From positions 1 through 64,000 of the forward strand of contig JACJJN010000009.1 of assembly GCA_016899975.1 (NCBI GenBank): a DNA stretch of 64,000 bases. The letters are read 5' to 3'. Below, in pieces: positions 45,197 through 62,313 of the stretch; position 1 is the first letter of the stretch; each line of letters opens with the position of its first letter. Below the pieces are notes generated by a model. It did not search any database. It worked only from the letters and a program-made list of their open reading frames with translations, and had not been told where the DNA came from. The position numbers and the translations under genes were made by a program. Origin of the DNA: Lacrimispora saccharolytica. GTDB taxonomy: Bacteria > Bacillota > Clostridia > Lachnospirales > Lachnospiraceae.

Positions 45197-46864
45197 TTGA
45201 AGAAGGATAATACAAGTAAATTAAAGATCATTCCGCTGGGCGGCCTTGAGCAGATCGGAATGAATATTACTGCCTTCGAGTATGAAGACAGTATTGTTGT
45301 CGTGGATTGTGGTCTGTCCTTTCCGGAGGACGACATGCTGGGGATCGACCTGGTAATCCCGGATGTGACCTATCTGAAAAATAACATTGAGAAGGTAAAA
45401 GGCTTTGTCATCACCCATGGCCATGAGGACCATATCGGAGCGCTGCCTTATATCCTGAGGGAAGTCAATGTTCCTATTTACGCGACAAAGCTGACCATCG
45501 GACTGATTGAAAACAAGCTGAAGGAGCATGGACTGCTCCGGACGACAAAGCGCAAGACGATCCGTCACGGTCAGTCCATCAATCTGGGAGCGTTCCGGAT
45601 TGAATTTATCAAGACCAATCACAGTATTGCAGACGCGGCAGCGCTTGCAATTTATTCTCCGGCGGGTATTGTCGTCCATACCGGAGACTTTAAAGTGGAT
45701 TATACGCCGGTATTCGGCGATGCCATCGATCTGCAGAGATTCGCGGAGATCGGGAAGAAGGGTGTGCTGGCGTTGATGTGCGACAGTACCAATGCGGAGC
45801 GTCCGGGCTTTACCATGTCCGAACGAACGGTAGGACGTACCATTGACAATCTGTTCGCTGGTCACAGAAACAGCCGTATCATTATCGCTACGTTTGCTTC
45901 CAATGTGGACCGCGTGCAGCAGATTATCAACTCGGCATATAAATTCGGCCGCAAGGTCGTTGTGGAAGGCCGCAGTATGGTAAACGTGATTTCTACGGCA
46001 CAGGAGTTGGGATATCTTCGCATTCCGGAGAATACGCTGATCGATATTGAGCAGATGAAAAATTATCCCGATGAACAGCTGGTTCTGATCACCACAGGAA
46101 GCCAGGGAGAGTCCATGGCGGCGCTGTCCAGAATGGCGTCACATCTTCACAAAAAAGTGTCGATCAAACCGGGAGATACGGTTATTTTCAGTTCCAACCC
46201 GATTCCGGGCAACGAAAAGGCTGTGTCCAATATTATCAATGACCTGTCCGAACAGGGCGCAGATGTTATTTTTCAGGATGTCCACGTATCCGGACATGCC
46301 TGTCAGGAAGAGATCAAACTGATCTATTCTCTTGTGAAACCCAAATATTCCATTCCGGTTCACGGTGAATACCGCCACCTGAAAGCGCATGCGGGAATTG
46401 CCGAGAGCCTTGGAATTCCGAAAGAAAATATCTTTTTGATGCATTCCGGAGATGTGTTGTCTTTGGATGGCAATGGAGCAGAACTGGCAGCAGGACAGGC
46501 TCCGACGGGAGCGATCATGGTAGACGGTCTGGGCGTCGGTGATGTGGGAAATATTGTTCTGAGAGACCGTCAGCATCTGTCGGAAGACGGTATCATGGTC
46601 GTTGTGCTCACATTGGAGAAGCGGAGCAATCAGCTTCTGGCGGGACCGGATATTGTTTCCCGCGGTTTTGTATATGTGCGTGAGTCCGAGGATCTGATGG
46701 GCGATGCGCGTGAAGTGGTGGAGGAAGCGCTGGATTCATGCCTGAACCGCCATATTTCCGACTGGGGCAAGATAAAATCGACGATCAAGGATGCTCTTGG
46801 AGACTTTGTATGGAAACGTACCAAGAGAAGGCCGATGATCCTGCCGATTATCATGGAGGCTTAA
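45197..46864 (+). CDS. rnj: ribonuclease J
   Basis: 555 residues. Metallo-beta-lactamase motif HGHEDHIGALPY near 73 binds two zincs, and the beta-CASP motifs (CDSTNAERPG, GSQGESMAAL, HVSGHA) follow; a C-terminal domain ends with the usual RPMILP. Dual 5'-exonuclease and endonuclease for mRNA decay and rRNA maturation. I accept a TTG start at 45197 because GGAGG lies 6 nt upstream and the residues match the family start (KLKIIPLGGLEQIG). Confidence 0.96.
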   Translation: MKKDNTSKLKIIPLGGLEQIGMNITAFEYEDSIVVVDCGLSFPEDDMLGIDLVIPDVTYLKNNIEKVKGFVITHGHEDHIGALPYILREVNVPIYATKLTIGLIENKLKEHGLLRTTKRKTIRHGQSINLGAFRIEFIKTNHSIADAAALAIYSPAGIVVHTGDFKVDYTPVFGDAIDLQRFAEIGKKGVLALMCDSTNAERPGFTMSERTVGRTIDNLFAGHRNSRIIIATFASNVDRVQQIINSAYKFGRKVVVEGRSMVNVISTAQELGYLRIPENTLIDIEQMKNYPDEQLVLITTGSQGESMAALSRMASHLHKKVSIKPGDTVIFSSNPIPGNEKAVSNIINDLSEQGADVIFQDVHVSGHACQEEIKLIYSLVKPKYSIPVHGEYRHLKAHAGIAESLGIPKENIFLMHSGDVLSLDGNGAELAAGQAPTGAIMVDGLGVGDVGNIVLRDRQHLSEDGIMVVVLTLEKRSNQLLAGPDIVSRGFVYVRESEDLMGDAREVVEEALDSCLNRHISDWGKIKSTIKDALGDFVWKRTKRRPMILPIIMEA

Positions 46865-59932: not shown

Positions 59933-62026
59933 TTAATAGTTTTTCTTATGTACTTCAAAGTAGGACTGGCTGTAGCTGCAGACAGGGCATATTTCCGGAG
60001 CGGAGGTTCCCACATGAATGTGTCCGCAGACACGGCATTCCCAGACCGTTTCTTCGATTTTCTCGAATACCTGTCCCTTTTCCAGATTTTCCAGCAGCTG
60101 TCTGTAACGTTCTTCGTGGCGTTTTTCGATTGCGCCGACTTTCCGGAAGCGCTCTGCCAGGTCATGGAAGCCTTCTTCCTCGGCGTCTTTCGCCATACGG
60201 TCATACATATCGGTCCACTCGTAATTTTCGCCGGTCGCTGCGGCCAGAAGGTTTTCCGCGCTTGTTCCCAGATGTCCAAGCTCCTGATACCAGAGGCGGG
60301 CATGTTCCTGTTCGTTGCGCGCTGTCATCAGGAATAATTCCGCGATCTGTTCATATCCTTCTCTCTGGGCGATCTGAGCAAAGAAGGTGTATTTGTTTCT
60401 TGCCTGGCTTTCACCGGCAAAGGCTTCCTGAAGATTCTTTTCTGTTTTTGTACCTGCATAGGGAGAGGTTCCGGATGCGGACGGTACTTCTTCTAACTTT
60501 TCGAAAGAAGATGCCGGCTGTTTGCAGATCGGGCAGGTATAATCCTCCGGAAGAGTTTCTCCTTCATAAATATAACCGCAGATCTTACATTTCCATTTTG
60601 TCATTGCTTCTGTTCCTTTCTTTTTGTCATTCTTCGTTTCCTGTTTTTTTGTGCCTTGTTTTAAGTCCCCGGCTCTGCTGATATAAGCAGTGTGAAGCAT
60701 CTTTTCCGCCAGTTCACTAAGCGGTTTTCCATAGAAATCCAGGTAAAGCTGTTTGATTTCCGGATTTTCGTGACTGAGACGCAGGGTCATCTGCTCGTCG
60801 CGGCGGTACAGGCCGGCGATTCGGGCTTTGCGTACGTCGTCGGCGTCTGCTTCCAGATTTCGCGGCTGGCCTCCGCCGCCGATACATCCGCCCGGACAAG
60901 TCATCACTTCAATAAAGTGATATTCTTTTGTGCCTTCTTTTACGCGCTCAATTATCTTGCGGGTGTTTTGCGTGCCGTGTACGGCGGCTACATTGATCTG
61001 CATCCCGGCGATTTCCAGACTTGCCTCACGGATTCCCTCATAACCCCGGACAGGTTTCAGCGTATAGAAATCTTTCGGAGCATTTTCACCGGTGATGTAC
61101 GTATATGCCGTTCGCAGCGCTGCTTCCATGACTCCGCCGGTATTTCCGAAAATCACGCCGGCGCCGGATGCCTCTCCCATCAGACGATCGTAGGCGCTGT
61201 CTTCCAGAGACTGGAAATCGATGCCTTCTTCTTTTGCCCAGCGCGCCAGTTCACGGGTCGTGATCACATGATCCATATCACGCATGTCCGGGATTCCCAG
61301 CATTTTTCCGGCCGCGTTCATTTCCTGGCGGCGGATCTCAAACTTTTTGGCGGTGCATGGAGTCAAGGCGACATTGACAATTTTTGTCGGATCGATTCTC
61401 ATTTTCTTTGCGAAATACGTTTTGATCGTCGGTCCCTGCATTCCGATCGGGCTTTTGGATGTGGAGATGTTTGGAAGAAGTTCCGGATAGTAGGTCTCCG
61501 CAAACTTTACCCATGCCGGACAGCAGCTGGTAAACTGCGGAAGCGGCGCTGTCTTTTTGGTAATCCTTTCAATCAGCTCGCTTGCCTCTTCCACGATGGT
61601 AAGGTCTGCTGCAAAGTTGGTATCCAATACATAATCCGCCCCGAGCGCACGGAGAAGCGCAACCATTTTGCCCTGAACAAATTCTCCGGGCTGCATGCCG
61701 AACGCTTCGCCAAGAGCCGCACGGACGGACGGCGAAGTGCTGACAATGACTACTTTTTCCGGATCGTTGACGGCGGCTCTCACATCCGGGTATTCATACA
61801 CCTCCGTGATGCTCGCCGGCGGACAGACGTTGGCGCACTGTCCACAGTGGATACAGATAGCCTTTCCTCCCGTCTCCTCCAGGGTATAGGTCCCAAGAAC
61901 GCCGATCACATTGGTACATACCTCTTTGCACATTCCGCATTTGATACAAGTTTCTTCGTTTCGGCAAATACTCGGATTGTCTGTTTCAATCGGTACCCGC
62001 ACAGACAGCGGCAAATGCCTTGTCAT
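59933..62026 (-). CDS. [FeFe]-hydrogenase fused to rubredoxin-rubrerythrin-rubredoxin
   Basis: 697 residues in a single frame. Residues 1-70: two [4Fe-4S] sites (C27-C30-C33-C37 and C58-C61-C64-C68). Then the H-cluster domain: TSCCPAW (C168 proton relay, C169 ligand), TPCTAKK (C223), [25 protein letters not shown] (C376, C380). After a Lys-rich linker (about 455-474): rubredoxin (C480, C483, C498, C501), a ferritin-like di-iron domain with E-x-x-R and NEQEHARLW ligand motifs, and a second rubredoxin (CRVC, CPVC) to the end. Hydrogenase oxidises or makes H2; rubrerythrin reduces H2O2 to water. The fusion suggests H2- or ferredoxin-driven peroxide removal. An internal ATG at 60604 with AAAGGAA could also give rubrerythrin alone. 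Start 62026 has AAAGGAGAGG. Controlled by the riboswitch upstream. Confidence 0.93.
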
Positions 62027-62109
62027 AAAATCCTCTCCTTTTCTTTTGAATTTTCGATTGTGGATCTTCCGCAATTGAATGATTTGGAAAAACAGGAATA
62101 AAATATAAC

Positions 62110-62140
62110 AAAAAACGGATAAAACATTCGTTTTATCCGT
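62110..62140 (-). terminator. riboswitch-controlled terminator
   Basis: Minus strand ACGGATAAAAC, loop GAAT, GTTTTATCCGT, then TTTTTTG. Its 5' arm is preceded by TGCAAC, complementary to GTTGCA at the end of the aptamer. Confidence 0.9.
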
Positions 62141-62180
62141 TGCACAATATCTATCGGGAAATCCGGTAAGATTCTATTAC

Positions 62181-62262
62181 TGCAACTGGCTGTCATTCTC
62201 ATGTTACATGGATTAGACCCTATAGCTTTGCGTCGCCATCTTTCGAAGGTTTTGCCAAAAAT
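62181..62262 (-). ncRNA. cyclic-di-GMP-I (GEMM-I) riboswitch aptamer
   Basis: Minus-strand RNA carries the GEMM-I landmarks in order: GGCAAAACC, GAAA tetraloop, GACGCAAAGC, TATAGGGTCTAA, and ATGACAGCCAGTTGC. These build the two-helix junction that binds c-di-GMP, with the tetraloop docking in a receptor. The aptamer's last strand GUUGCA can instead pair with UGCAAC next to the terminator stem, so ligand binding and antitermination compete. Inferred outcome: c-di-GMP causes termination and turns the hydrogenase-rubrerythrin gene off. Confidence 0.9.
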
Positions 62263-62284
62263 TATTCGGTTGTTTTCTGTTATC

Positions 62285-62313
62285 ATCAAACCATATTCTT
62301 CAAATTTTGTCAA
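62285..62313 (-). promoter_or_regulatory. promoter of riboswitch-hydrogenase unit
   Basis: Minus strand TTGACA (62313-62308), 17 nt, TTTGAT (62290-62285). The -10 is weak; start would fall about 15 nt before the aptamer. Confidence 0.5.

Follow-up and report, generated by a model that had tools for sequence, protein, structure and literature searches.

A c-di-GMP-I (GEMM-I) riboswitch followed by an intrinsic terminator was found in front of hydR, the gene for a chimeric [FeFe] hydrogenase and rubrerythrin, in the 64,000-nucleotide stretch of Lacrimispora saccharolytica DNA analysed here (the window), and the same pairing was found in three further genera. The pairing is real and conserved, and it joins a known riboswitch class to an unusual target. 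The aptamer, the terminator, the complementary strands between them and the gene are present and conserved in four genera; promoter use, ligand identity, switch direction, enzyme activity and physiology are what we infer. In the preferred reading, to which we give a probability of about two in three, the riboswitch is a transcriptional OFF switch for the HydR enzyme.

The whole window was scanned with all Rfam families (cmscan). The hydR leader matched RF01051 along the entire model (positions 1-87 of 87) with an E value of 9.3e-10, at a score far above the curated cut-off of 35 bits, as the covariance-model check proposed in the preliminary description had anticipated. The remaining gathering-level matches in the window were four, all of them tRNAs. 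The landmarks named in that description (GGCAAA, GAAA, GACGCAAAGC, TATAGGG and ATGACAGCCAG) all lie on the minus strand where they had been placed, and the range it gave opens, as read by eye, with the first base of the TTGACA box (62313) and closes with the final T of the T tract (62110). In the genome to which the window belongs (3.25 Mb in 201 contigs, 99.93% complete), the hydR leader was the sole RF01051 match at E <= 0.001; a search of the same genome for a c-di-GMP-II riboswitch gave no match, and control genomes likewise gave none. A 96-aa open reading frame (62023-62313, minus strand) spans the aptamer, and its TTG start overlaps the TTGACA box; it was rejected as a coding region. The coordinates of all features are collected in the table.

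Features of the hydR leader and gene in the window
Feature	Position	Strand	Basis or remark
Promoter: TTGACA (62313-62308), 17-nt spacer ending TGn, TTTGAT (62290-62285)	62285..62313	-	read by eye
c-di-GMP-I aptamer	62178..62266	-	RF01051, 62.1 bits
Strand A, CCAGTTGCA (aptamer 3' strand and antiterminator 5' strand)	62181..62189	-	identical in 4/4 leaders
Strand T, first part, TGCAACGG (antiterminator 3' strand, overlaps base of terminator stem)	62137..62144	-	TGCAGCGG in G003
Intrinsic terminator, 12-pair stem (62141-62114) and T tract	62110..62141	-	pairs kept in 4/4 leaders, partly via G-U
Ribosome-binding site GGAGAGG	62032..62038	-	by eye
hydR, 697-aa [FeFe]-hydrogenase - rubredoxin - rubrerythrin - rubredoxin chimera	59933..62026	-	Pfam, NCBIfam, motifs

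A terminator behind the aptamer, also part of the preliminary description, was recovered as a 12-pair site with TTTT directly behind it. The scan found four terminator-like sites in all against a mean of 3.9 in shuffled sequence, and the terminator call therefore rests on its place and its conservation. Likewise, the promoter rests on conservation read by eye, because a consensus scan listed as many sites as were listed in shuffles and did not list the proposed hydR promoter, the -10 box of which fails the rule of the scan. In the alignment, TTGACA, the 17-nt spacing, TGn and TTTGAT or TTTAAT are retained in all four leaders. Also, the linker between aptamer and terminator (62171-62150, minus strand) carries the element ACCGGAUUU-C(3-5)-GAUA in all four leaders, in which only the number of C residues varies; the CGGAU within this element repeats the start of the terminator arm.

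The gene behind the leader encodes, as the preliminary description had it, a hydrogenase-rubrerythrin protein. Translation was taken to start at the ATG behind GGAGAGG and not at the TTG of the open reading frame listing. The protein passes the NCBIfam cut-offs of TIGR02512 ([FeFe] hydrogenase group A) and NF045767 (rubrerythrin), and in Pfam it matches Fe_hyd_lg_C, Fe_hyd_SSU, Rubrerythrin and two RUBY_RBDX stretches, placing a rubredoxin-like domain on each side of the rubrerythrin domain. Ferredoxin models scored just under their cut-off, and two Cys motifs of the 4Fe-4S type are present at residues 27 and 58. The H-cluster motifs are L1 TSCCPAW at 166, L2 TPCTAKKFE at 222 and L3 at 377; a pattern search gave EQEH at 572 and EKRH at 634 as candidate diiron ligands of the rubrerythrin part. 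By its sequence the protein has the HydR architecture. CperHydR of Clostridium perfringens, the one HydR known as an H2-dependent H2O2 reductase, likewise fuses an [FeFe] hydrogenase with two rubredoxins and a rubrerythrin and has the same L2 motif (PMC11926857). Because of this common architecture and motif, HydR of the window probably uses H2 to destroy peroxide. The word riboswitch is absent from the text of the CperHydR paper (PMC11926857).

The covariance alignment shows the aptamer strand CCAGUUGC, which bears the C92 equivalent, paired back within the aptamer. The same strand can alternatively pair with UGCARC-GG, the last three bases of which begin the terminator stem. The preliminary description had pointed to the complementarity of GUUGCA (62186-62181) and UGCAAC (62144-62139); this complementarity was confirmed, and the usable part could be refined to CC-a-GUUGCA with UGCAAC-GG. 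Helices of six Watson-Crick pairs reaching the terminator arm were seen in 0.16, 0.08 and 0.18% of 5000 dinucleotide-shuffled linkers of the leaders from the window genome (G000), G132 and G355, respectively, and in 1.1, 2.0 and 2.5% when G-U pairs were allowed. The aptamer 3' strand is thus complementary to the terminator 5' arm by six Watson-Crick pairs in three of the four leaders; in the fourth, G003, six pairs are reached only with a G-U (3.9% of shuffles). Covariation proper is absent from the terminator and antiterminator helices of the four leaders, because the differences between them are one-sided G-U changes.

In the preferred reading, the aptamer 3' strand CCAGUUGCA would pair at low c-di-GMP with UGCARCGG and so hold the first bases of the terminator 5' arm; with this antiterminator formed, RNA polymerase would continue into hydR. 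When c-di-GMP is high, the ligand would lock CCAGUUGCA in the aptamer, leaving the terminator arm free, and transcription would stop before hydR. HydR would accordingly be made in the low-c-di-GMP state and shut off at high signal. An OFF switch is preferred because the strands stand in the same order as in Cd1, the riboswitch of the flgB operon of Clostridioides difficile, in which a class I aptamer, an intrinsic terminator and an antiterminator between the aptamer 3' strand and the terminator 5' arm are described as well (PMC9262584). An OFF mode is likewise ascribed to the class I c-di-GMP switches of C. difficile (PMC11477304). Cd1 differs in governing flagellar genes and in having its switching measured, whereas we infer that of the hydR leader, and the linker and terminator sequences are also different. 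In biofilms of C. perfringens, hydR is said to be down (PMC11926857, citing its reference 73).

Folding of transcripts ending before the terminator 3' arm (ViennaRNA) gave the antiterminator core a probability of about 0.99, 0.67, 1.0 and 0.62 in G000, G003, G132 and G355, and the GG extension one of 0.72, about 0.02, 0.93 and 0.50. In full-length RNA at equilibrium, the upper nine terminator pairs formed in every state. Fixing the aptamer gave a clear strengthening of the three basal terminator pairs in G000 and G132, almost none in G003 and none in G355; in free full-length RNA, G000 and G132 were the only leaders to keep the antiterminator core. In aptamer-only transcripts the aptamer fold was disfavoured by 3.6 to 6.0 kcal/mol, in a calculation that is blind to tertiary contacts and ligand. 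A purely equilibrium switch is unsupported by folding in G003 and G355. The model described for Cd1 is a kinetic one, in which strands T and H form the terminator and strands T, A and H the antiterminator; aptamer and terminator can coexist, and the antiterminator refolds to the terminator in time (PMC9262584).

The equilibrium folds of G003 and G355 do not force the OFF reading, and a switch of opposite sign was considered, in which binding of c-di-GMP weakens termination and HydR is made in cells with high c-di-GMP. Homologous aptamers are described as ON switches, for example that of pilM, which senses cGAMP (PMC9262584). In Porphyromonas gingivalis, loss of the diguanylate cyclase PG_0686 is reported to lower rubrerythrin mRNA by an unknown mechanism, a case that ties c-di-GMP synthesis to a rubrerythrin gene, as is proposed here for hydR, but with a sign opposite to that of the OFF model (PMC10101095). 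It concerns another phylum and a separate rubrerythrin, with no riboswitch described. In the hydR leader, however, the freed CCAGUUGCA pairs with the terminator 5' arm, which puts it in competition with the terminator, and no competing structure that the ligand would stabilize was seen in the folds. We consider an ON switch unlikely.

HydR was searched for in 299 and then in 397 genomes of the family, two overlapping draws from a larger group. In the draw of 397, 22 matches at E <= 1e-240 were found in 21 genomes. The four closest proteins, from four genera, are that of the window genome itself (100% identity) and those of G003, G132 and G355 (90, 87 and 86%), and RF01051 was present upstream in all four of these loci, with 62.1, 67.1, 63.9 and 63.6 bits in G000, G003, G132 and G355. 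The order of promoter, aptamer, terminator and gene is the same in all four, and the distance from the C92 equivalent to the ATG is 155 to 160 nt. Since the pairing of aptamer and hydR recurs in three further genera, chance adjacency in a single genome was rejected. The interpretation given in the preliminary description is supported by the presence and joint conservation of aptamer, terminator, complementary strands and hydR in the four genera.

A general association of HydR with GEMM-I was ruled out. The 18 other HydR matches of the family (60-78% identity, E <= 1e-240) showed no RF01051 when scanned at E up to 1 (11 loci), at E up to 0.1 (six loci) or, for L166, at gathering level only; two of them are partial, L166 comprising only the first 515 residues and L196 only the first 466. 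Eight further matches, two of them partial, were added by 392 genomes drawn from the order and were likewise without RF01051 (0/26 together). The same was true of twenty HydR loci from another search, which derive partly from the same genomes and of which some are partial or have short flanks. One genome, G086, has two HydR genes (C21 and C34), each with 71% identity to the window protein, and RF01051 lies upstream of neither. In six other genomes of the window genus, two of which are 75 and 88% complete, the chimera was not found; matches spanned the hydrogenase part or the rubrerythrin part, never both. A maximum likelihood tree with midpoint root was built from 26 proteins, i.e. the 30 matches without four partial ones, with row L164 shortened by a stop. 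The four proteins with a riboswitch formed one group with a support of 100/100, and a single change sufficed to explain the trait, a value as low as this being reached in 0 of 500 shuffles.

The alignable part of the four leaders begins at TTGACA, takes in aptamer and terminator and reaches the ribosome-binding site; upstream of TTGACA no alignment was obtained. The neighbours of hydR, mostly named by eye, are genes for a single-strand-binding protein and a small ribosomal protein in the window; G003 has a nucleosidase-like gene there, G132 a GGDEF gene together with glycosyltransferases, and G355 P-type ATPase-like genes. In G132 (L186, G132:C8, 7060-11024, plus strand), the GGDEF protein and two glycosyltransferases, one matching a cellulose synthase model, are encoded on the opposite strand upstream of hydR, i.e. 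a c-di-GMP and polysaccharide cluster adjoins the riboswitch and hydR. The RNase J-like protein of the window (45197-46864, named by eye) was used as a yardstick. Its identity to the window protein is 88-95% in the six congeners, 81% in G355, 78% in G132 and 75% in both G003 and the further family member G284, against HydR identities of 86, 87, 90 and 77% in G355, G132, G003 and G284; the HydR of G003 in particular is far closer to that of the window than the yardstick would suggest. Leader and hydR have probably travelled together, since the four proteins fall into one supported group, their genes lie in different surroundings and HydR differs less between these genomes than the single housekeeping protein compared. 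One marker is slender evidence by itself, but together with the absence of the chimera from the six congeners it favours a joint horizontal transfer of leader and hydR.

If the leader came with the gene, it might also be a relic or a fixed attenuator that has lost its response to c-di-GMP in these hosts. HydR genes outside the four-genus group do without it, the pairing arose once on the HydR tree, and two leaders hardly switch in the equilibrium folds, all of which would fit a relic. On the other hand, the aptamer core, the contact bases, the terminator pairs and the antiterminator core have been kept in four genera in which the DNA upstream of TTGACA does not align, and we regard the loss of function as quite improbable.

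The c-di-GMP-I class is defined by contact bases equivalent to G20, A47 and C92 together with the GAAA tetraloop. What we take to be the equivalents of these Vc2 bases, at 62256, 62229 and 62182, are G, A and C in all four leaders, and the tetraloop is present in all four as well. The G20 equivalent is the base that changes in cGAMP-sensing variants, and its identity as G in the four leaders speaks for c-di-GMP over cGAMP. The window genome encodes five GGDEF proteins. The motif is intact in two (GGEEF or GGDEF) and degenerate in the other three, of which two carry EAL domains and one an HD domain; with these proteins present, both synthesis and breakdown of c-di-GMP in the cell are plausible. 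Although an altered binding pocket is reported to let some GEMM-I RNAs sense c-AMP-GMP (PMC9481103), the kept G and the intact GGDEF motifs make it very improbable that the ligand of the hydR aptamer is a different cyclic dinucleotide, for example 3',3'-cGAMP.

RF01051 was found in at least 110 of the 299 family genomes. The preliminary description had called hydR an unusual regulon member, and within the family this was borne out: none of 116 other fetched GEMM-I loci (110 of the better-scoring ones among the matches listed and six from the genus search) had a hydrogenase or rubrerythrin homologue nearby (tblastn, E <= 1e-3, flanks of about 1.5-2 kb, some cut by contig ends and four with masked runs), and the same query recovered the window gene in L001. 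Among 89 proteins encoded downstream of GEMM-I, CAP, PAS, GGDEF, transglutaminase and solute-binding domains lead the best 25 of 92 Pfam families, and by these the targets in the family are surface and signalling genes. Motility, adhesion and surface genes are also the main targets described for c-di-GMP riboswitches (PMC11477304). L012 and L254 carry GEMM-I upstream of reading frames that begin with the same sequence; two of the 89 proteins match MshEN and T2SSE and are probably the products of these frames, pointing to ATPases of a secretion or pilus system. The targets of the riboswitch vary inside the window genus, since a congener without HydR (G118) has GEMM-I before lipoproteins that appear solute-binding-like by eye (G118:C52 and G118:C33, L118 and L121). 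Tandem GEMM-I aptamers were observed in G261:C7, G261:C14, G140:C55, G262:C26 and G082:C10, and G262 has as many as three in succession; tandem c-di-GMP-I riboswitches are already known (PMC9481103).

A riboswitch before a ferredoxin hydrogenase gene is described for the tungsten-cofactor riboswitches, which are of another class and bind another ligand (PMC9481103). In the open literature, with most subscription journals outside its scope, no report of HydR, or of any other [FeFe] hydrogenase, being preceded by a c-di-GMP riboswitch was found in the available parts of the sources (including PMC11477304, PMC9481103, PMC10599522, PMC8225356, PMC7865049, PMC6311696, PMC13194489 and PMC10101095). 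Riboswitch class and enzyme have each been described before, and as far as the literature searched shows it is their pairing that is undescribed.

The conserved pairing suggests that c-di-GMP turns peroxide defence down. That promoter, c-di-GMP-I riboswitch, terminator and hydR form a portable cassette which has spread between genera of one family, making peroxide removal with H2 a direct output of c-di-GMP, is a proposal to which we give even odds. In the window species, the riboswitch arm of the signal would then serve peroxide defence alone, on at low and off at high c-di-GMP, since the hydR leader is the only c-di-GMP riboswitch found there. If the switch works as drawn, one RNA would connect lifestyle signalling with the defence against oxygen and with the use of H2, HydR would gain a proposed direct regulator, and when such bacteria need HydR would become a question testable by a simple transcription assay.
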